From positions 722,011 to 786,010 of the forward strand of contig JADGDG010000001.1 of the NCBI GenBank assembly GCA_016744995.1: 64,000 nucleotides of DNA, in the 5' to 3' direction. Below are positions 3,351-13,098 of the stretch, in pieces. The first letter of the stretch is position 1, and every line of letters begins with the position of its first letter. This stretch comes from Gammaproteobacteria bacterium (GTDB lineage Bacteria; Pseudomonadota; Gammaproteobacteria; GRL18). A program made the position numbers and the translations under genes. The notes below the pieces were generated by a model, which saw only the letters and a program-made list of their open reading frames with translations, searched no databases and was not told the origin of the DNA.

Positions 3351-4112
3351 ATGATGCTTAAAATGGATATTAAACAAAATATATGTCTCTTACTACTATT
3401 AGTTTTATTTAATAATAGTGCCTATTCTTTGACCCAATCAAAACAAAGTTATCAAACTCTTAAAGAGACTATTCAGGCTCTGGATGTCACAAAAAATAAA
3501 TCCAAAAGTAAATTATTAAGTCTGGATCAATATAGAGACAAGTCACTATATAACGAGTATTCAGTATTTATCGAATATTTAAGCTTTCGCATTAAGGAAA
3601 ATTGTTTAAAAATAGAAGAATATTACGGTATCAAACACCTGTCAGAGCTTCCCTGCAATCTGATAAAAAATAAAAAACAACAACTTGATAATAATAAATA
3701 TAAAACTGAGGATGAAAAAATTCAATCCCTTGATGATGAATTGATGACAGCCTTAGGTGAGTTTGATGATATGCTTTTAAAAGAGGAAGAAGCAATTGCT
3801 CAAAGCAGCAGACAGAATTCAACAGATGAAGGAACATCAAAGGCATCTTATAATTCAGGTTTAGATGGCAAAGGTGCTCTTAATCAGAATCAAAACCGGA
3901 ATGAAACAACTGGCTCTATTATAGATAAATCAAAAAATTCTAAGAGTAAGGCGAAACAGACAAAAAAATATAAAAAGAATAAGTTAGATAAAATTAATGA
4001 TGATATTGTTGCGAGACAATTAAAAGAAGCAGCAGAGAGTGAAAAAGATCCAGTATTAAAAGAAAAACTATGGCAAGAATATTATAAATATAAACAGAAA
4101 ATGATTAAATGA
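3351..4112 (+). CDS. Secreted coiled-coil protein of unknown function (first gene of VWA/ExbB/SUMF1 cluster)
   Basis: I do not recognise a family. The N-terminus has a charged start followed by a hydrophobic stretch (LLLLLVLFNNSAYS, about residues 13-26), which fits a Sec signal peptide cleaved after AYS. The mature protein is Lys/Glu/Asn-rich and mostly predicted helical, with a low-complexity Asn/Gln/Ser region around residues 165-200 and a basic C-terminus. It has two Cys (in NCLKIEEY and LPCNLI) that could form a disulfide. The last four bases overlap the start of the following lipoprotein gene (ATGA), so the two are probably translationally coupled. Two further in-frame ATGs near the start leave the exact start uncertain by a few codons. 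Confidence 0.6.
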   Translation: MMLKMDIKQNICLLLLLVLFNNSAYSLTQSKQSYQTLKETIQALDVTKNKSKSKLLSLDQYRDKSLYNEYSVFIEYLSFRIKENCLKIEEYYGIKHLSELPCNLIKNKKQQLDNNKYKTEDEKIQSLDDELMTALGEFDDMLLKEEEAIAQSSRQNSTDEGTSKASYNSGLDGKGALNQNQNRNETTGSIIDKSKNSKSKAKQTKKYKKNKLDKINDDIVARQLKEAAESEKDPVLKEKLWQEYYKYKQKMIK

Positions 4113-5308
4113 AACCTATTCAATATAAAAGAAATCTTACACAGATAATGACAATTCTTATGGTACTCCTCCTTACCAGTGCCTGTAGTTCAATACCTAA
4201 TCAATTTTCAAAATCAGTTGAAGATACGAAACCAATAATGGCGCAACAAGAGATCAGTAATGAGAAATTATTAGATGTATCAATTATAGTATTTTCACCT
4301 GGTAGTTTGCCAGAGAATAAAGAAGATAGAAGAGGTTTATCTGAAAAGATAAGAAATTCTGAATCTCGCTTTATTCCAATACATCTAAAATATACAATGC
4401 AGCGTACTGGTTTTTGGGGAAGTGTTCGGGTTGTACCTGTTGAAAGTGAAGGTAGCGAAGTTATAGTAAAAGGAAAAATTTTAAAATCTGATGGTGAAAA
4501 TCTTATTTTAAATATTAGTGTTTTTGATGCCAGTAATAAAAAATGGTTTGAAAAAGAATATGAGAAATCTGTTCTGTATGAAAATAGAAAAGAAACAGAA
4601 GTAGAGCGTGAGGATGTTTTTCAGGATATCTATAATCGGATCTCAAATGATATTATTAACTATAGAAAAAAACTTACATCAAATGAGATAAAACAAATAA
4701 AGCAAATAGCAGAATTAAGATTTTCGCAAAACATGGCACCTGATACTTATAATAATTATTTAACAATGGATAAAAATGGTTATCATCAATTAGCTAGATT
4801 AGCATCGAATGATGATCCAATGATGCATAGAATTCGCACACTTAAAGCTCGAGATGAAATGCTGACTGATAGTATTAATAACTATTATAATATTTATTAT
4901 ACAGATATGTGGGATAGTTATGATAATTGGAGAAAATTTAGAAGTGAAGAAATAGCCACAATTCGAGAAATAGAAAATAAAGCGATGACCCAAAAAGTAC
5001 TAGGTATTGCAGCCATTGTCGGTGCGATAGCCCTGGGTGCATCTGGCAATGAGAATACCGGTGTTTTATCAACGGTAATGGTCGCAGGTGGGACTTATGC
5101 ACTCTATGAAGGCATTAAAACCAGTAAAGAAAGTGAAATCAATAAAGAAGCTATTGAGGAACTTGGAGAGTCATTTACCACTGAAATTGAACCAATATTA
5201 ATTGATGTAGATGGTAAAACATTAGAATTAACTGGATCAGCTGATCAACAATATTTGAAATGGAAATCAATATTGAAAAAAATATATCATAAAGAGACAG
5301 GGTTTTAG
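4109..5308 (+). CDS. Lipoprotein of unknown function in VWA/ExbB/SUMF1 cluster
   Basis: A 399-residue predicted lipoprotein: the signal peptide ends in LLTSAC, a good lipobox, so the mature protein would start at Cys26 or so and be membrane-anchored. Residues ~50-150 form an alpha/beta region with the flavour of CsgG/LpoB-type periplasmic domains (LDVSIIVFSPG, RFIPIHLKYTMQRTGFWGSVRVVP, VIVKGKILKSDGENLIL). A helical middle follows. A Gly/Ala-rich hydrophobic stretch at ~294-335 could be a membrane hairpin. It resembles uncharacterised lipoproteins I recall from other gammaproteobacteria; no function is known to me. It overlaps the upstream gene by 4 bp, and the next gene follows 18 bp later. 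Confidence 0.7.
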   Translation: MKPIQYKRNLTQIMTILMVLLLTSACSSIPNQFSKSVEDTKPIMAQQEISNEKLLDVSIIVFSPGSLPENKEDRRGLSEKIRNSESRFIPIHLKYTMQRTGFWGSVRVVPVESEGSEVIVKGKILKSDGENLILNISVFDASNKKWFEKEYEKSVLYENRKETEVEREDVFQDIYNRISNDIINYRKKLTSNEIKQIKQIAELRFSQNMAPDTYNNYLTMDKNGYHQLARLASNDDPMMHRIRTLKARDEMLTDSINNYYNIYYTDMWDSYDNWRKFRSEEIATIREIENKAMTQKVLGIAAIVGAIALGASGNENTGVLSTVMVAGGTYALYEGIKTSKESEINKEAIEELGESFTTEIEPILIDVDGKTLELTGSADQQYLKWKSILKKIYHKETGF

Positions 5309-5326
5309 CCTGCTTCAAGTTAATTT

Positions 5327-6838
5327 TTGAAAAAATTGGATATTATATCATTGCAAACGCCTGAATTAAGAGCCCCTTCAAAATCGAATTTTATTAATGA
5401 AAAAGAAAGTGTAAATAAGCACTCCTCAATAATAGTTTATCTATTGCTGAGTATAGTTGTATGCCTATTGCTCATCATTTTTTTTCTAATATTAGATTCA
5501 AAACTCAGTCAGACAAATGGAAATTTATCTGAAGAAAAAATATCAGTCTCACAAGAAATAAATAATACGCCTAATGTTGTTTCTATAGAAGAAAAAAATA
5601 ATGAGCACATTGAATTTGACTGGATGTTAAAAAAATCTGAGGCTGAAGATCATAAAATACCAGTTTGGGCAAATGAGCAGTATATAGAAGCGTTAGAATT
5701 AGGCTCTCAGGCAGAGGCATATAAAGATAATGCACAATATAGCAAGTCTGAAGAAAAATTTAATCAGGCAATACAATTAATTGAAGTTGTTTTTGAAAAA
5801 AAAGAAGAAATATTAAAACAGCTAATAAAACAAGGGTTTATAAACCTGGAAGAAGAAAACTTAGATCAGGCAAAGAAAAACTTTGATAAAGCTTTAGCTA
5901 TAAATGAAAAAAATAAATTAGCTAATAGAGGGCTGCAGAGAATATCACAACGTCAGAAAGTGGTAACTTTGTATGAAAAATCATTAGAGTTAGAAAAAAA
6001 ATCAGATATTAATAGTGCAATTATTGTGTTGAAACAAGCAATAGAGATTGAACCGGAATATAAAATAATTAATAAAAAACTACAGGAATTATTAATAAGA
6101 AAAAAATTAAATATTTTTGATATTGCGATCAATAATACTCTTGCTGCATTAGATAAGAATAATTTCACATTAGCCAGGAAAGAAATAAAAATTGCCCAAT
6201 TACAAAAACCAAATGATCCTACTATTAATGAGTTAAATTTAAGGATTAAGAATGGTATCGTGAGCAAAAATATTTCTATTTTGAAGCATAATGCTCAGCA
6301 AGAAGAAAATAAAGAACAATGGCAGGAAGCAATAAAAAGCTATAAAAAAATACTATTAATTGATCCTGGTATTAGTCAGATTATTGTTAAACAACAACGT
6401 GTGAAAGCTTATATTAAAATAAATCAATTATTGGATGATATTATTAATGATCCAATACGTTTGCAAAATGATAAAATATTTGAACAAGCAAAGACATCAC
6501 TGGAATATGTAAAATTTGAATTAGCTCAAAAAAATAATCACTATTATTCAGAAATTAAAACACCATTATTAATGAAGAAAATTGTATCAGCAGAAGATGT
6601 CATTATGAATGCCGGAAAAGAAATAAATGTGACAATACAATCTGATAACAAAACCAATATAAGCATTTATAGAGTTTCAAAATTAGGGAAAATATTAAGT
6701 AAACAAATTAAACTCAGACCAGGAAAATATACCGTTTTTGGTTCCAGGGTTGGCTATAAAGATTTTAGAAAAATTGTTGAAATTAATGCCAATGATCAGT
6801 CTGTGATTATTCATGTCCAGTGTAAAGAAAAAATATGA
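5327..6838 (+). CDS. Membrane-anchored TPR protein with C-terminal PEGA-like domain
   Basis: The 503-residue protein begins at a TTG codon; no ATG is available before the membrane segment, so TTG is the likely start. A cytoplasmic N-terminus of ~34 residues precedes one transmembrane helix (about 36-58). Residues ~115-375 contain several TPR-like helical pairs (for example AQYSKSEEKFNQAIQL, ENLDQAKKNFDKALAI, EQWQEAIKSYKKILLIDP), a protein-interaction scaffold probably facing the periplasm. The final ~75 residues form a beta-rich PEGA-like module (LRPGKYTVFGSRVGYKDF). Its stop overlaps the next gene by 4 bp. Its partner is likely the following FHA/PEGA/SUMF1 protein, which has the same PEGA theme. 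Confidence 0.75.
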   Translation: MKKLDIISLQTPELRAPSKSNFINEKESVNKHSSIIVYLLLSIVVCLLLIIFFLILDSKLSQTNGNLSEEKISVSQEINNTPNVVSIEEKNNEHIEFDWMLKKSEAEDHKIPVWANEQYIEALELGSQAEAYKDNAQYSKSEEKFNQAIQLIEVVFEKKEEILKQLIKQGFINLEEENLDQAKKNFDKALAINEKNKLANRGLQRISQRQKVVTLYEKSLELEKKSDINSAIIVLKQAIEIEPEYKIINKKLQELLIRKKLNIFDIAINNTLAALDKNNFTLARKEIKIAQLQKPNDPTINELNLRIKNGIVSKNISILKHNAQQEENKEQWQEAIKSYKKILLIDPGISQIIVKQQRVKAYIKINQLLDDIINDPIRLQNDKIFEQAKTSLEYVKFELAQKNNHYYSEIKTPLLMKKIVSAEDVIMNAGKEINVTIQSDNKTNISIYRVSKLGKILSKQIKLRPGKYTVFGSRVGYKDFRKIVEINANDQSVIIHVQCKEKI

Positions 6839-9318
6839 ATCGATATTTTGAAATAATAGATGAAAATAATACTATAAGGCAACTGAATAGTAATGATCTT
6901 CCTTTTCAAATTAGTCTTGAACAACAAAATAATGATCTGAGTTATTTGCTTATAACTCAGATAAAGTCAGACGAAAAGAATGAGGCTAAGATTTGTGCCC
7001 ATATTGCAGAATCAGAGGGTTATATTTTTTTTCAGCCTGATGTAAATTCAAATAGAATTGATATCTTCCATAATGATGAAAAAATTGAAAAATCAGTCTG
7101 GTTGAAGTCAGGTGATATCTTATTAATTGGAAGCAAGATAATTACATATGATGTTTCAGGCGATATTGTAAAAATAAAAGTATCGGAAAAAAATCATAAT
7201 AATAGACAATCAAATATTGAACCACAACTAACCCCTCCCCCTCCAATTAAGCAAGCTCTCATTGAACAAGAGTCACCTAAGATAAAACAATCTATTAAAA
7301 AGAAATCTATATTTATCTTTATGACTATTTTTTTATTAGTTTCTGCCGCTTTTATTTTGTTTGCGAACATAATTAAAATCGATATTAATCCAGCAGAAGA
7401 TAAATTGACATTATCTGGAAATTTTCCAGCTATAAAAATAAGTGATCGCTATATGCTTTTAAGTGGATTATATCAACTTAAAGCTGAAAAAGATGGTTAT
7501 CAGCCTTTAAATAAAACTGTCGATATTAATTCAGATAATAAGATTTATAAATTTTCATTGAATGAAAAACCAGGCCAAATATTTTTTGAAATTCAACCAG
7601 AGATTAATAATAAGATCTACCAGGACAATGTTCTTTTGGCTAAGAACAGGAAAAATCAATATGAAATTAACAGGGGTGAATATAATTTTGTTATAAAAAA
7701 TCCTCGTTTTCAGACACTTTTACAAAAAATTGAAATAAAAGGAAAAGGAAAAAAACAAATACTTAAATTTAAACTAATACCTAATTGGGGTTATATTAAA
7801 TTTATCTCTAAAATAGATGAAGCATCATTACAGATATTTTCAATACAGCAAGAAAAATTAAAAAAAATATATGATGGAAAATTGCTTAATAGTAGTGAGA
7901 TTGAATTAATTTCAGGTCAGTATGTTGCTAAGATTAACAAAGAAAAGTATAAAGAAATAATAATTAATTTTAATATTGAGGTAAAAGGACATGAGGAACT
8001 AGAAATTAAAACGCTTGAACCGTTAGATGCAATAGTCAATGTTACATCAAATCCTCCTGGTACTATAATTCGAATCAACGGTCAATATAAAGGTGAAACA
8101 CCAAAAATTATAAATCTTGCTCCTTATACTAAACATGAACTGGAACTTAGTTTATCGGGCTATAAAAAAGTAATGCAGGAACTTAGTTTTAAACCTGGAG
8201 AAAAAGCAGAATTAAAGCATAGACTGAAGATGATTGATGGTAGTGTTTTTATTACAGTGTTCCCCAGCAGTGCAAAATTAATTATAGATGGAAAAATTCA
8301 AAAGGAATCATCAGGAAGATTTAACTTAGCAGGTAAAAATCATATTATTACGGTAAAACAAAAAGGCTATGTTAGTCAGACAAAAAAATTGACTACAGGA
8401 AATTACAATAAAAACATAAGCTTTAGTTTAAAGAAGTTATCACTTTCATCACACTCAAAAACAAAATCGATACATAATAAATCAACCAGTAATAATTATG
8501 CTAATACGATAAATCAAAAAATGATCTTAATGAGAGCAATGAGTTTCAGCGTGGGTTCAAAGAATAATGAATCCGGTCGGGGTTCTAATGAAAGACAGTA
8601 TAAAGTGAAACTCGACTATGATTATTATCTCTCTGATAAAGAAGTGAGCAATAAACAATTTAAAGCATTTAAAGAAAAACACAGTTCAGGATCAGTGTCA
8701 GGTACGACACTTAATGCAGATGATCAGCCTGTAGTAAATATTTCGTGGAATGAAGCAGCAGAATTTGCTAATTGGTTAAGTGCAAAAGAAGGTTTGACAG
8801 CCTTTTACAAAGAAGTTTCTGGAAAAATGATCCCGGCTGATTTATCAAAGAAAAATAATGGCTACCGATTACCCTTTGAAGCTGAGTGGGTTCTGGCAGC
8901 CAGAGGAACTATGCAGAATAAATATCCCTGGCAGGGAACTTATCCGCCTAAAAATATGAATGGTAATTATGCTGACGAAACCGCCAGATCTTATGTTGCT
9001 AATGTTATACAAGGCTACAATGATCAACAGGGTGTTTCTGCTCCTATTGGCAGCTATAAAAAGAACGCATCTGGATTTTATGATATGGGTGGCAATGTTT
9101 CTGAATGGTGTCAGGATTATTATTCTCCAAATCCTTCACTATCATCAAGAAGTAAAGTTATTGTTAATCCTACCGGGCCGAGCAAAGGTAGTCATAAGGT
9201 GATCAAAGACTCAAGTTGGAGGGATGCTTCAATTACAGAGTTAAGATTAAGTTATCGAAGCTATAGTAGAAAAAAAGCCAAAGATCTTGGTTTTAGATTA
9301 GCCCGGTATGCACTATGA
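6835..9318 (+). CDS. FHA-like / TM / PEGA repeats / SUMF1 (formylglycine-generating enzyme-like) fusion protein
   Basis: An 827-residue single-pass membrane protein. Residues ~20-120 look like a divergent FHA domain (WLKSGDILLIGSKIITYDV), predicted cytoplasmic. A transmembrane helix lies at ~158-178. Then come PEGA-type beta modules, clearest at ~400-466 (SNPPGTIIRINGQYKGETP) and ~467-540 (VFPSSAKLIIDG). From ~562 to the end is a complete FGE-sulfatase/SUMF1 fold with PVVNISWNEAAEFANWLS, YRLPFEAEWVLAARG, GFYDMGGNVSEWCQDYY and DLGFRLAR. SUMF1 domains can be enzymes or carbohydrate/protein binders; I see no sulfatase in the window, so a binding or structural role is more likely. The gene overlaps both neighbours by 4 bp. 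Confidence 0.85.
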   Translation: MNRYFEIIDENNTIRQLNSNDLPFQISLEQQNNDLSYLLITQIKSDEKNEAKICAHIAESEGYIFFQPDVNSNRIDIFHNDEKIEKSVWLKSGDILLIGSKIITYDVSGDIVKIKVSEKNHNNRQSNIEPQLTPPPPIKQALIEQESPKIKQSIKKKSIFIFMTIFLLVSAAFILFANIIKIDINPAEDKLTLSGNFPAIKISDRYMLLSGLYQLKAEKDGYQPLNKTVDINSDNKIYKFSLNEKPGQIFFEIQPEINNKIYQDNVLLAKNRKNQYEINRGEYNFVIKNPRFQTLLQKIEIKGKGKKQILKFKLIPNWGYIKFISKIDEASLQIFSIQQEKLKKIYDGKLLNSSEIELISGQYVAKINKEKYKEIIINFNIEVKGHEELEIKTLEPLDAIVNVTSNPPGTIIRINGQYKGETPKIINLAPYTKHELELSLSGYKKVMQELSFKPGEKAELKHRLKMIDGSVFITVFPSSAKLIIDGKIQKESSGRFNLAGKNHIITVKQKGYVSQTKKLTTGNYNKNISFSLKKLSLSSHSKTKSIHNKSTSNNYANTINQKMILMRAMSFSVGSKNNESGRGSNERQYKVKLDYDYYLSDKEVSNKQFKAFKEKHSSGSVSGTTLNADDQPVVNISWNEAAEFANWLSAKEGLTAFYKEVSGKMIPADLSKKNNGYRLPFEAEWVLAARGTMQNKYPWQGTYPPKNMNGNYADETARSYVANVIQGYNDQQGVSAPIGSYKKNASGFYDMGGNVSEWCQDYYSPNPSLSSRSKVIVNPTGPSKGSHKVIKDSSWRDASITELRLSYRSYSRKKAKDLGFRLARYAL

Positions 9319-9563
9319 AAACTAAAATAATACTTTGTTGTTTTATATTAATTTTTTTTAGTGAAATAGTCTATACACAAGAAAATAGTGATCCTTCAGG
9401 CTTAGATCAAAATACTACTAAAAAGGTAGATTCAAACAATCATAAACAAAATTCAGAAAAAAACAATTTAAAGAAAAAGGCTCTGAAAAACTGGCCTGCT
9501 ACCTTTGTTCCAAGTGAAAAAATTAATGCAGATAGCTCTGTTTCGTTCCCCGTTGATATATAA
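9315..9563 (+). CDS. Small secreted protein of unknown function
   Basis: An 82-residue product starting 4 bp inside the SUMF1 gene (ATGA). Residues 1-21 form a short basic start and hydrophobic core (IILCCFILIFFSEIVYT) consistent with a signal peptide. The remainder is Lys/Asn/Ser-rich and hydrophilic, ending in a WPATFVPSEKINADSSVSFPVDI-like tail that may be the only ordered part. The two adjacent Cys in the hydrophobic core do not make a clear lipobox. No family is recognised. Coupling to the cluster suggests a periplasmic accessory peptide, but this is inference only. Confidence 0.55.
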   Translation: MKTKIILCCFILIFFSEIVYTQENSDPSGLDQNTTKKVDSNNHKQNSEKNNLKKKALKNWPATFVPSEKINADSSVSFPVDI

Positions 9564-9587
9564 CAGCCTAAGGAAATGGTTAATAAC

Positions 9588-10403
9588 ATGAATAGTAGAA
9601 GAGATATTCCAGTGGAATTAATTTATCAGATATTTTCTCTGCTGATTGCATTTATTATTGTTCATACGTTTTACATTTCAGTGATACGCCCTCAGGCCGA
9701 TGAATTTATTGAGCAGGAACATCAACAAATGTTGGCTGATTCAAGCTATGTGCAAAAGAGAAATTTCTACGTAGTGGTAAGAGATTATGAGCAGGAAGCG
9801 TGTTTTATTTTAATGTTCTGGGCTTTTTCCATTATGGGGTTTAAGGGGTATTTGTCATGGAAACAAGGTCAACTGCTTGATATGGATCTCCTGAAATTGC
9901 CAATTGATTTGCCGGTTGGACCTGAAGATACCAAATTGCTTATAGAACGCCTTAGAGATTTACCTGCATCATTACAGCAGTATTTACTGCCAAGAGCATT
10001 ATTAATAACTATTCAAAGATTTGCAGCAACTCGCAATGTTCATGATGCAGCGACAGCAATGAGAGATGTCTGTGAATCAGAGTCTCAGAGATTGGATACG
10101 GAATTATCAATTATTCGTTATATTGCCTGGGCAATACCATCAGTGGGATTTATAGGAACAGTTCGAGGAATTGGCGATGCTCTTTCTCAGGCCAACAGAG
10201 CAATGGAAGGAGATATCACTGGGGTAACAGAATCTCTGGGCGTGGCATTTAATTCGACATTTATTGCGCTGGTTATTTCGATTCTGTTAATGTTTTTTAT
10301 TCACCAGTTACAATTATTACAGGAACGCCTGGTTTTAGATTCTGAAAGTTATTGTGATATCAACCTTGTTGCCCGTTTAAGAAGTGCTTCAGGATTTAAT
10401 TGA
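9588..10403 (+). CDS. MotA/TolQ/ExbB-family proton channel protein
   Basis: The inner-membrane channel component of a proton-motive-force-driven machine. Hydrophobic segments lie at ~11-34, ~68-87, ~180-200 and ~222-246. The third carries the family signature (IPSVGFIGTVRGIGDAL), and the fourth continues as LGVAFNSTFIALVISILL, typical of TolQ/ExbB helices that line the ion path. There is an ATG at 9576, but the AGGAA Shine-Dalgarno abuts it. The ATG at 9588 has a workable spacing, so I chose that start. No ExbD/TolR homologue follows. Instead two VWA proteins, each with an N-terminal helix, occupy the ExbD position. Confidence 0.85.
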   Translation: MNSRRDIPVELIYQIFSLLIAFIIVHTFYISVIRPQADEFIEQEHQQMLADSSYVQKRNFYVVVRDYEQEACFILMFWAFSIMGFKGYLSWKQGQLLDMDLLKLPIDLPVGPEDTKLLIERLRDLPASLQQYLLPRALLITIQRFAATRNVHDAATAMRDVCESESQRLDTELSIIRYIAWAIPSVGFIGTVRGIGDALSQANRAMEGDITGVTESLGVAFNSTFIALVISILLMFFIHQLQLLQERLVLDSESYCDINLVARLRSASGFN

Positions 10404-10425
10404 TTATTCTGGCTTTAACTAGCAA

Positions 10426-11526
10426 ATGAAAAATAAAAAAAAATATATATCATCCTTTAATCTGTCTTTTCTGGATATTATGTTTTGTGGTTTTGGTGCC
10501 GTTGTTTTATTAGTGCTGATTATTAATTCACAGATAGTCAGTGATAATAAAATAAAAAATGAAACTCTTTTTTTAGAGCTGGAACAGCTTAAAAAAGAAT
10601 CCAAAATATCAGAAAATTATCATCAGAAATTAAAAAAAACCTTACAGGAAAGCCATGAAAGTTTTAAAAATTTAAAGCAGGCACATTCTATAGTTAAAAA
10701 AAATCTGACTGAGATCCAAAAAGAAAAGATGAATGATCAGGAAAAATCTTTAAGCCTGAAAAAACAGATTAATAATCTGGAAAATGAGATCAAAAAAATT
10801 GACATTCAAAATGGGGAACAAAAAAATAAGGTTGAAATAGCGGTTAAACGTAGTGGTGACAAACTTCGACAATATGAAGGTGATGGCCATCGACAATATT
10901 TAACCGGTTTAAAAATGGGTGGTAAACGGGTACTTTTTTTAATTGATAGTTCTGCATCGATGCTGGATGAGACAATTGTCAATATTATCTTAAAAAGAAA
11001 TCTTTCTGATAAAGTAAAAAGAAATACAAGAAAGTGGCAGCAGGCCATTAAGAGTGTTCAATGGATGCTTGCAAACCTGCCCTCTTCCAGTCAGTTTTTA
11101 CTATTGAGCTTTAATACAGAGGTCAAATCACTAAGTCGAGATCAGTCATATACCTGGATAAAGAGTCATGAGACCTCAAAGATTAATGATTTATATCTAC
11201 AGCTCAACAGGCTGATACCAGAAAAAGGGACAAACTTAATACAAGCGTTAAGCAGTATTAAAACAATGTCGAAACAGCCAGATAATATTATTCTGATCAC
11301 TGATGGTCTGCCGACGCAGGGTAATAATAAAACCAATAACACAAAAATAACTGCAGAAGAACGAATTAAATTATTTAAACTGGCGATTAAAAAAATACCG
11401 AAAGGAATTCCAGTGAATACTATTTTATTACCAATGGAAGGGGATCCGATAGCCGCAGCTCTTTTCTGGAAACTGGCTATTGATACCAATGGTTCATTTA
11501 TAACGCCCAGCCGGGACTGGCCATGA
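10426..11526 (+). CDS. Membrane-anchored VWA-domain protein (first of pair)
   Basis: A 366-residue protein with one N-terminal transmembrane helix containing SFLDIMFCGFGAVVLL, a coiled coil at ~45-135, and a C-terminal von Willebrand A domain from ~165. The MIDAS metal site is intact: DSSAS at residues 174-178, the Thr in KGTNLIQAL and the Asp in ILITDGLPTQG. The topology (short cytoplasmic tail, one helix, periplasmic domain) mimics ExbD/TolR, and the gene follows the ExbB-like channel. I infer it is the force-transmitting partner. It overlaps the second VWA gene by 4 bp. Confidence 0.8.
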   Translation: MKNKKKYISSFNLSFLDIMFCGFGAVVLLVLIINSQIVSDNKIKNETLFLELEQLKKESKISENYHQKLKKTLQESHESFKNLKQAHSIVKKNLTEIQKEKMNDQEKSLSLKKQINNLENEIKKIDIQNGEQKNKVEIAVKRSGDKLRQYEGDGHRQYLTGLKMGGKRVLFLIDSSASMLDETIVNIILKRNLSDKVKRNTRKWQQAIKSVQWMLANLPSSSQFLLLSFNTEVKSLSRDQSYTWIKSHETSKINDLYLQLNRLIPEKGTNLIQALSSIKTMSKQPDNIILITDGLPTQGNNKTNNTKITAEERIKLFKLAIKKIPKGIPVNTILLPMEGDPIAAALFWKLAIDTNGSFITPSRDWP

Positions 11527-12527
11527 AAAAACGCATTCAACGGCAGGGAATTGAAGTTTTTAGCCTCTCTTTTTTAGATGTTGTATCCTGTGGTTTTGGT
11601 GCAATTATTTTATTGCTGGTGATCAGTAAAATTGCCCAGCCTATTGTGTTTGAGGAAACTACAACTGAATTAAAAAAAGCATTACTGGAGGCTAAACAAG
11701 AGCTGCTCAGAACTCAGGAAAAAATTATAAGCACAAATAACAAATTAACTCAGTCCAGGCAGGAAATAGATCATATCAACCATAAGTTAACTAATGATTC
11801 ATTGAAATTGACTAAAATTAGTCATGCATATGAAGATTCAGGCAATAACTTGAATGTACAATTAATTATCAAGGAAAAACTAAAACAGGCACGCCAGGAG
11901 CTTACGGATGAAATGCGTCGTTTACAAAATAAAACACCAGTGACTAATAAACAAAATACCATTGGCGGGATAAGTGTCAGTAGTGAATATATTATTTTTA
12001 TAATTGATACATCCGGCTCAATGAAAAATTTTGCCTGGACGATGGTGCGAAAAAAAATGAAAGAAATCTTACAAATACATCCAAATGTCAAAGGAATTCA
12101 GGTGATGAATGATATGGGTGATTATATGTTCAGTCAATATGCCGGGCGTTGGATCCCTGATACACCCGCGAGAAGACGAGCTATTTTAAAGCAGCTATCT
12201 TATTGGGAACCTTTTTCTAATTCATCTCCAGAAGAAGGTATTACCAAAGCAATTCGCCGATTTTATGCCAATGATAAACAAATTTCCTTATATATTTTTG
12301 GAGATGATTTTTCCAGAGGTTCAATCCAGTCATTACTGAATACGGTGCAAAAATTAAATAAAAGCAACCGTTCAGGAGAAAAAAGGGTAAGAATTAATGC
12401 CGTAGGATTTCCGGTATTATTTGAACATCCTGGTACTGAAAGTAATATTGCCCGTTTTTCAGCTTTAATGAGAAAAATAACAGAAGATAATAATGGCAGC
12501 TTCGTTGGCTTGACTCATCTTAAATAA
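11523..12527 (+). CDS. Membrane-anchored VWA-domain protein (second of pair)
   Basis: A 334-residue paralogue-like partner of the preceding gene. The N-terminal helix repeats the motif (SFLDVVSCGFGAIILL), followed by a coiled coil at ~45-120 and a VWA domain from ~150. The MIDAS DTSGS is at residues 162-166; the third metal ligand probably lies in LYIFGDDFSRG. Beyond the membrane motif the two VWA proteins are quite different, so they look like two specialised subunits and not a recent duplication. Together with the channel they could form an ExbB-(VWA)2 complex. The gene ends the overlapping part of the cluster. Confidence 0.8.
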   Translation: MKKRIQRQGIEVFSLSFLDVVSCGFGAIILLLVISKIAQPIVFEETTTELKKALLEAKQELLRTQEKIISTNNKLTQSRQEIDHINHKLTNDSLKLTKISHAYEDSGNNLNVQLIIKEKLKQARQELTDEMRRLQNKTPVTNKQNTIGGISVSSEYIIFIIDTSGSMKNFAWTMVRKKMKEILQIHPNVKGIQVMNDMGDYMFSQYAGRWIPDTPARRRAILKQLSYWEPFSNSSPEEGITKAIRRFYANDKQISLYIFGDDFSRGSIQSLLNTVQKLNKSNRSGEKRVRINAVGFPVLFEHPGTESNIARFSALMRKITEDNNGSFVGLTHLK

Positions 12528-12612
12528 TTTCTACTATTTCATCATAATATCCTGCTACTCACCTATAAATGGTTTAGAATATAGATAGAATAAAAGATTT
12601 AAGGTCATTAAT

Positions 12613-13098
12613 TTGAAAACACTCACTTTTTCTATACTGATTCTATTTTATATAACTGCTTGTCAGACTCATCTACCGATTGTAGGAGGTGATGATGTGG
12701 ACACACCGTGTCCGGAAAATATTGAATCCATAGAATTAGCGGATATTGATTATCTGCTTTATGCTAATAAGATGATAGATTCGATGGTTGAAAACAATAA
12801 TGTAAAGCAGGAAACGATCAATAGCAGAATGCGATTGTCCATATCCCCCATCACTCAAAGTTATAGTGATATCAATATGAGTACCCTGAACACAGCAATT
12901 AAAAATAGAGTTTTACGCTCAGGACTATTTATCATTGTCAGTGATATGAGTGTCACAAATTTTAATCTGTCTGGAGAACTTAAAGAAGTAGTACAGCAAT
13001 CAAGCTCATGCAGCCAACGCTATGATGAGTTTTCCTTACAACTAAAAAACATTAAAAATGGTTCAACGCTTTGGTCTGAATTAAAGCAATTTAGATAA
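12613..13098 (+). CDS. LpoB-like lipoprotein (penicillin-binding protein activator family)
   Basis: A 161-residue predicted lipoprotein starting at TTG with AAGG 8 bp upstream; the signal ends in YITAC. The sequence follows the LpoB pattern: ANKMIDSMVEN, a strand with RMRLSISPIT, then INMSTLNTAIKNRVLRSGLFIIV and a terminal strand GSTLWSELKQFR. LpoB activates the peptidoglycan synthase PBP1B from the outer membrane. Here the protein is the last member of the envelope cluster, after an 85-bp gap, so it may instead be a structural part of that system. It is shorter than enteric LpoB and lacks its long Pro-rich linker. Confidence 0.65.
   Translation: MKTLTFSILILFYITACQTHLPIVGGDDVDTPCPENIESIELADIDYLLYANKMIDSMVENNNVKQETINSRMRLSISPITQSYSDINMSTLNTAIKNRVLRSGLFIIVSDMSVTNFNLSGELKEVVQQSSSCSQRYDEFSLQLKNIKNGSTLWSELKQFR

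Follow-up and report, generated by a model that had tools for sequence, protein, structure and literature searches.

A conserved gene module around a MotA/TolQ-family channel and two VWA proteins: a candidate proton-driven machine of the cell envelope

What kind of machine is encoded by a gene cluster in which a MotA/TolQ/ExbB-family channel gene adjoins two genes for VWA proteins, without a gene for an ExbD, TolR, or MotB partner? We address this question for a cluster at positions 3351-13098 of a 64,000-nucleotide stretch of a gammaproteobacterial genome (assembly GCA_016744995.1, contig JADGDG010000001.1, positions 722,011 to 786,010 of the forward strand), which is referred to as the window in the following. 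A reading of the window from its sequence alone had proposed nine consecutive plus-strand genes as an undescribed envelope machine, and all nine open reading frames (ORFs), here g1 to g9, exist at the coordinates then given. Our analysis identifies g1-g8 as a conserved module whose core is very likely a motor driven by proton-motive force, and it separates g9 from this module.

The channel g6 and its two VWA partners

The channel g6 matches the MotA_ExbB family (PF01618) with an E-value of 7.6e-15 and 55.2 bits, the Pfam cut-off being 22.9 bits. Its residues Thr195 and Thr228 align with Thr145 and Thr178 of E. coli TolQ, and both positions are occupied by threonine in 85 of 85 g6 relatives. 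As four hydrophobic helices can be recognized by eye, the topology of g6 is possibly MotA-like rather than TolQ-like; the hydropathy scan marked three of them and left the fourth (around residues 177-200) below its threshold. Neither the g6 nor the VWA2 family profile found a useful match among PDB sequences.

The proteins encoded by g7 (VWA1) and g8 (VWA2) open with nearly identical helices, FNLSFLDIMFCGFGAVVLLVLII and FSLSFLDVVSCGFGAIILLLVI, which resemble the TolR helix INIVPLLDVLLVLLLIFMA in having one aspartate at the helix start. The sole transmembrane helix of either protein hence bears a pore aspartate of the ExbD/TolR/MotB type. This motif is present in 100 of 100 VWA1 sequences with a complete 5' end and, by pattern, in 104 of 106 VWA2 sequences; inspection by eye added the VWA2 of locus L138 (GISFLDTITCGIGAIILL) and thereby raised the count to 105 of 106, while the VWA2 of L137 stayed unassigned. 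The periplasmic domain that follows is a VWA domain and not the domain of ExbD/TolR or the OmpA domain of MotB. For g7, the VWA_2 match was above the Pfam cut-off (E 2.1e-7). The g8 domain alone fell below it (9.7e-4), and the metal motif DTSGSM is invariant in the g8 family. A DxSxS metal motif is kept by both VWA families in the aligned sets. The proposal of the sequence-only reading that a proton-channel family protein is paired with two VWA proteins, which take the place of ExbD, is supported.

As the four ExbD and three MotB genes found by a whole-genome search all adjoin their own, different channels, there is no orphan ExbD or MotB that could pair with g6, and no ExbD/TolR encoded elsewhere in the genome is a counterpart of this channel.

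Conservation and composition of the module

The pairing of channel and VWA proteins recurs far beyond the window. Among 369 sampled genomes of this class, VWA2 was found in 28, and all of these 28 also have g6. Four more genomes have g6 matches beyond the VWA2 carriers (the match in G353 is weak, and G003 has a partial VWA1 match). A scan of named genomes yielded at least 387 VWA2 relatives, from which 80 loci were listed; gene order was counted in the 41 loci with at least 9 kb of upstream sequence. The channel gene stands beside VWA2 in all 41, and the other genes are present in 40 (g4), 38 (g5), 37 (g2, g3, and g7), and 34 (g1) loci. The usual order is g1-g2-g3-g4-g5-g6-(gX)-g7-g8, where gX is an additional gene described below, and the whole g1-g8 order is kept in most loci, so that the recurrence across genomes by which the sequence-only reading suggested to check its proposal could be established. 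Some of the missing genes are probably artefacts of ORF calling in high-GC contigs; in L068, an antisense ORF occupied the position of g7. In two genomes (L137, L138), g6 has moved behind VWA2. The listed loci belong to Gammaproteobacteria, Desulfobulbaceae, Desulfuromonadales, and Desulfobacterales, and to metagenome-assembled genomes labelled as Myxococcales, Phycisphaerales, Kiritimatiellia, and Acidobacteria. As the order recurs in such distant genomes, the gene set is far beyond chance. A spread of the module by plasmids was considered and rejected, since tblastn with VWA2 gave no match in 72,556 plasmids.

In the window, neighbouring genes overlap by 4 bp at four of the eight junctions (g1/g2, g3/g4, g4/g5, and g7/g8). 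The overlaps noted by the sequence-only reading are therefore real, and only its statement that most of the genes overlap was slightly overstated. The remaining junctions leave 18, 12, 22, and 85 bp between the genes, with the longest gap in front of g9. Signal peptides were found in g1 and g5, lipoboxes in g2 and g9, and one transmembrane helix each in g3, g4, g7, and g8 by hydropathy. These localisation signals and the domains (Table 1) agree with the gene contents proposed before, namely a channel, two VWA proteins, a fusion of FHA-like, transmembrane, PEGA, and SUMF1 parts (g4), two lipoproteins, and two secreted proteins. The promoter and terminator scan performed no better than on shuffled sequences.

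Table 1. Genes of the cluster, with positions in the window
Gene	Position	Strand	Product
g1	3351..4112	+	Secreted protein, 253 aa; signal peptide, charged/coiled middle part, conserved C-terminal segment
g2	4109..5308	+	Lipoprotein, 399 aa; predicted FlgT/PelC/CsgG/TolB-D1-type fold at residues 39-196
g3	5327..6838	+	Single transmembrane helix and periplasmic TPRs, 503 aa
g4	6835..9318	+	FHA-like cytoplasmic N-terminus, transmembrane helix, PEGA repeats, C-terminal FGE-fold domain; 827 aa
g5	9315..9563	+	Small secreted protein, 82 aa; conserved C-terminal tail
g6	9576..10403	+	MotA/TolQ/ExbB-family channel
g7 (VWA1)	10426..11526	+	Pore-type helix SFLDIMFCGFGAVVLLVLII at the N-terminus, then a coiled coil and a VWA domain (metal motif DSSAS)
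g8 (VWA2)	11523..12527	+	Pore-type helix SFLDVVSCGFGAIILLLVI at the N-terminus, then a coiled coil and a VWA domain (metal motif DTSGS)
g9	12613..13098	+	LpoB-like lipoprotein, adjoining but outside the conserved module

The lipobox cysteine of g2, Cys26, is followed by serine at position +2 and is invariant in an alignment of 48 sequences, which makes g2 a lipoprotein family-wide. Comparisons with Pfam and with PDB sequences did not identify g2, and a fold comparison was needed. The predicted structure (mean pLDDT confidence score 86.8) has an N-terminal domain with matches at Z 10-12 across 101-172 residues. FlgT came first (Z 11.8, root-mean-square deviation (rmsd) 4.0 over 133 residues), and further matches were the LPHT ring (Z 11.0), PelC (10.9), the CsgG complex (10.2), and TolB (10.1). 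Several of these proteins belong to rings or pores of the outer membrane, but a common fold, here of a predicted model, is no proof of a common function. The C-terminal part of g2 consists of a long helix and a glycine-rich helical hairpin near the C-terminus.

In g3, the TPR_2 match was above the Pfam cut-off (E 2.1e-10). The description of g3 as a transmembrane-TPR-PEGA protein in the sequence-only reading was right for the first two parts and not for the third, as PEGA (PF08308) had no match in the window copy and was found in only 1 of 39 relatives. In g4, the PEGA (E 3.8e-23) and FGE-sulfatase (E 7.7e-40) matches were both above the Pfam cut-offs, and the transmembrane helix lies at about residues 165-183. 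The FHA-like N-terminus is weak when taken alone, whereas the family profile finds the FHA structures of EmbR (E 3.9e-5) and Ki-67 (5e-4). A feature that went beyond the sequence-only reading concerns the formylglycine-generating enzyme (FGE) fold of g4: in 47 of 47 members, the aligned catalytic motif has no cysteine. A role as catalytic FGE can be rejected, as the two copper-binding catalytic cysteines are missing throughout. The closest NCBIfam model to this domain is GldK (E 6.7e-29), at 101 bits against an equivalog cut-off of 350, so that the relation to GldK is one of a common FGE fold only. Among the solved structures of motor systems, PorK is closest. PorK of the type IX secretion system (T9SS) also lacks both FGE cysteines, and its fold serves as a docking hub in a system driven by proton-motive force (PMC12421860).

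Both secreted proteins have a conserved C-terminal part. The g1 sequence is otherwise poorly conserved and carries the segment DDDIVARQLREAAxxETDPELKEKLWEEYRKYK (3999-4095 in the window, residues ~217-248). The g5 tail, which the sequence-only reading had not described, has the consensus FxPSExIxADxxVxFPxDI-COOH. A C-terminal isoleucine and a proline at position -4 are present in 78 of 78 copies, an aspartate at -2 in 75, and an aspartate at -10 in 74. The window's genome has a single copy of this tail, and within the loci examined it is confined to g5. Since just one protein of the genome bears it, we rejected the idea of a general sorting tag or export signal.

Some relatives add further parts. 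In 20 of the 41 loci, the extra gene gX stands beside the VWA genes. Its predicted model (pLDDT 89.9) has a nucleotide-binding fold of the Hsp70 type (Z 27.3, rmsd 3.3 over 321 residues), and 10 of 25 members carry an FHA domain. The window's genome has no gX, its only match being in the FHA range (E 8e-4). In 7 of 39 relatives, such as L108, L120, and other long copies, g3 has a protein kinase domain fused to its N-terminus, ahead of the transmembrane helix; only two of the examined sequences have kept the kinase motifs HRDxKxxN and DFG, and the others look degenerate. Several gX-bearing loci (L044, L115, L121, L124, L133, and L144) encode an M48 metalloprotease and two additional lipoproteins near or behind VWA2, which the window copy lacks. 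One of these loci, L133, belongs to Kineobactrum sediminis, a culturable carrier of the operon.

The ninth gene, g9, matches LpoB (PF13036, E 1.7e-9; TIGR02722, E 7.7e-12, below the cut-off of that model). It directly follows the module only in close relatives of the window (L036, L039, L042, L056, and L057) and is displaced from it even in L037 and L040. It is not part of the conserved module, and the LpoB-like lipoprotein therefore has to be removed from the list of machine parts given by the sequence-only reading. As g9 lies outside the module beyond the close relatives, LpoB does not indicate work on peptidoglycan, and this reading was rejected. A comparison of g9 with the two extra lipoprotein families of the gX-bearing loci gave no significant match.

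Other motor-like clusters were noticed besides the module. In G353, a genome of the same class, L147:8493-17951 contains a TolQ-like gene, an FHA protein, a PP2C-like phosphatase, two trypsin-like proteases, one of which carries FHA, and a single VWA protein whose pore-type helix bears an aspartate (NVSALDLFASALGAFILITVV), followed by a Ser/Thr protein kinase; these domains were assigned by eye. In the window's own genome, a channel-family gene on contig C35 (L055:7984-10241) is followed by a gene for a coiled-coil protein with an aspartate-bearing pore-type helix (SFTDIMTVVVMIFLL), for which the whole-genome search gave no ExbD or MotB model match. On contig C25 (L054:7444-11251), a small MotA_ExbB-family gene adjoins the gene of a 747-aa protein. 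No match to ExbD or MotB lies close by, and this pair is possibly a further uncharacterised set.

A proposed motor and its alternatives

Taken as a whole, the locus is probably best explained by a proton-driven motor of 5:2 stoichiometry, with a VWA1/VWA2 axle that works on outer-membrane lipoproteins. All of g1-g8 would then form one trans-envelope machine powered by proton-motive force. Five copies of g6 would assemble into a TolQ/MotA-type ring in the inner membrane, and one N-terminal helix each of VWA1 and VWA2 would form a two-helix axle within this ring, the aspartates of which would face the channel threonines and carry protons. Proton flow would turn or shift the axle, and the coiled coils would pass the movement to the two different periplasmic VWA domains, whose metal sites may bind partners that connect to the outer-membrane lipoprotein g2. 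With its TPRs, g3 would constitute an inner-membrane-anchored scaffold together with g4, a PEGA stalk with a cysteine-less FGE fold, in the way in which the FGE-fold protein PorK docks partners of the PorLM motor. The secreted peptide g5 would dock in the machine with its acidic C-terminus, possibly at a VWA metal site, and the FHA-like, Hsp70-FHA, and kinase parts of relatives would permit control from the cytoplasm.

This model builds on the observed gene order, the domains, the invariant residues, and the predicted g2 fold, from which we infer the stoichiometry, the heterodimer, the force transfer, a ring of g2, and the role of g5. Its parts differ in strength. That g6-g8 are a motor core of this kind is very likely, and we are equally confident that g1-g5 belong to the same machine. 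Acidic ligand residues are a common target of the metal sites of VWA domains, which makes the acidic tail of g5 a good candidate ligand, but the docking of g5 on a VWA domain is tentative. That g2 forms a ring is no more than suggested by the predicted model, and any particular physiological role of the machine can be proposed only with low confidence.

Several points weigh against the proposed motor. The match of g6 to the Pfam MotA_ExbB model reaches only 55 bits. The two VWA proteins could each dimerise with themselves and serve separate motors, and the channel could conduct another ion. The module is not unbreakable, since one genome has g6 on a different contig from the rest (L139/L140). 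Ring formation by g2 relies on a fold resemblance with middling Z values, which are common. In the literature searched, we found no experiment on any member of the module.

Two alternatives have the same motor core as the proposed motor and differ from it in the output. First, the machine could serve outer-membrane integrity and lipoprotein turnover like Tol-Pal, with the motor pulling lipoproteins and the M48 protease clearing faulty ones. This is an option with a limited probability, for which the family-wide lipoprotein g2 with its TolB-D1-like fold among the matches speaks, together with the two lipoproteins and the M48 protease that gX-bearing loci add after VWA2. The window copy, however, has neither the protease nor these lipoproteins, and Pfam finds no OmpA-like peptidoglycan-binding domain in the module. 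In comparison to Tol-Pal (TolQRA, TolB, Pal), the TolQ-family channel and the outer-membrane-type lipoprotein recur here, whereas TolR, TolA, and Pal are missing.

The second alternative, which we regard as slightly less probable, is a motor for surface movement or for the export or assembly of proteins at the outer membrane, as in T9SS/gliding GldKLMN or myxobacterial Agl, where the VWA axle would turn or pull an outer-membrane ring that carries surface proteins. The FGE domain, which lacks the cysteines as PorK does and is closest to GldK among NCBIfam models and to PorK among solved motor-system structures, points in this direction, and so does the combination of one MotA-type channel with two different pore-aspartate proteins, which is known from AglRQS, the gliding motor of Myxococcus (PMC9389320). 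However, the AglRQS partners are TolR/MotB-like and not VWA proteins, the recurrent neighbours include no recognisable translocon or adhesin gene, and the g5 tail is restricted to a single protein. GldKLMN/PorKLMN likewise combine a proton motor with an FGE-fold envelope protein that lacks the catalytic cysteines, but in the module VWA proteins that are unmatched by GldM models replace GldM, g4 is an inner-membrane transmembrane protein with PEGA instead of a lipoprotein, and GldN, Sov, or a cargo domain were not found.

A Zorya-like anti-phage system, with a proton motor that detects damage to the envelope and then sets off an effector, is highly improbable. The patchy distribution over 28 of the 369 genomes would be compatible with it, and PADLOC yields a weak ZorA2 match (E 3.4e-4, 17.7 bits), its other matches being weak and resembling coiled-coil or chance hits. 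Against it stand the lack of a nuclease, a helicase, another effector, or a ZorB match, the mostly periplasmic or lipoprotein parts, and the conservation of the order over great distances, and we rejected a role in defence. Least probable is a complex for the activation of peptidoglycan synthesis centred on g9, which the LpoB matches suggest and the gene context of g9 largely refutes.

Known vWA motors and what the module adds

The core of the proposed motor has been predicted before. In section 8 and Fig. 4c,d of PMC12204202 (Mol Biol Evol 2025), TolQ is predicted to act with heterologous TPH-vWA pairs without tolR or exbD. The second vWA family of that paper, found in Proteobacteria and Verrucomicrobia and exemplified with Idiomarina proteins, was described, with AlphaFold 3 models, as having a pore helix with a conserved aspartate and a threonine ring. 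As far as its text goes, the same features recur here: a tolQ-like gene adjoins two distinct VWA genes without an ExbD or MotB partner, with the pore aspartate and the threonine ring of the channel. No named Idiomarina locus is among the 80 VWA2 loci that were listed. In its architecture, the core agrees with this independent prediction, which speaks for the proposed motor. Because the accessible text describes exactly this pairing of channel and VWA proteins, we count the core g6-g8 as a member of the published predicted kind and the wider machine as the new part. The consulted text of PMC12204202 assigns no function to these vWA pairs and mentions neither sulfatase nor PEGA. Lipoproteins, TPR, PEGA/FGE, and small secreted proteins, Hsp70-FHA, kinases, and M48 proteases are not given there as partners of the second family, though a figure may show neighbours. 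In the literature searched beyond this paper, we found no discussion of TolQ-vWA pairs. The claim of the sequence-only reading that the machine is undescribed hence fails for the channel-VWA pairing and holds, for that text and the literature searched, for its surroundings: the wider module, the g2 fold, the cysteine-less FGE domain, the g5 tail, and the variants with Hsp70-FHA, a protein kinase, and an M48 protease appear to be undescribed.

The flagellar stator with its H and T rings (MotAB/PomAB, FlgT) offers a further comparison. It also combines a channel with a pore-aspartate partner, and g2 resembles FlgT best, whereas the module has no MotB, OmpA domain, or flagellar genes. We consider it conceivable, though rather unlikely, that the module represents a further complete class of trans-envelope machines driven by proton-motive force, in addition to Tol-Pal, Ton, the flagellar stator, Agl, and T9SS. 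In such a machine, a heterodimeric axle of VWA proteins would work an outer-membrane lipoprotein ring and would be gated or loaded by g5 as a dedicated secreted peptide, whose invariant C-terminal Asp-Ile would be read by a VWA metal site, while kinase, FHA, and Hsp70-like parts would exert control from the cytoplasm.

Few known machines bring proton-motive energy to the energy-free outer membrane, and of the vWA motors only the predicted core had been named so far. The parts list around this core now includes an outer-membrane-type lipoprotein with a predicted FlgT/TolB-like fold, a scaffold with an FGE fold repurposed as in PorK of T9SS, and a small secreted protein whose tail is near-invariant. 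Each of these parts offers a direct approach for genetic and structural work. The kinase, FHA, and Hsp70-like parts of the variants suggest that the motor is switched from the cytoplasmic side.

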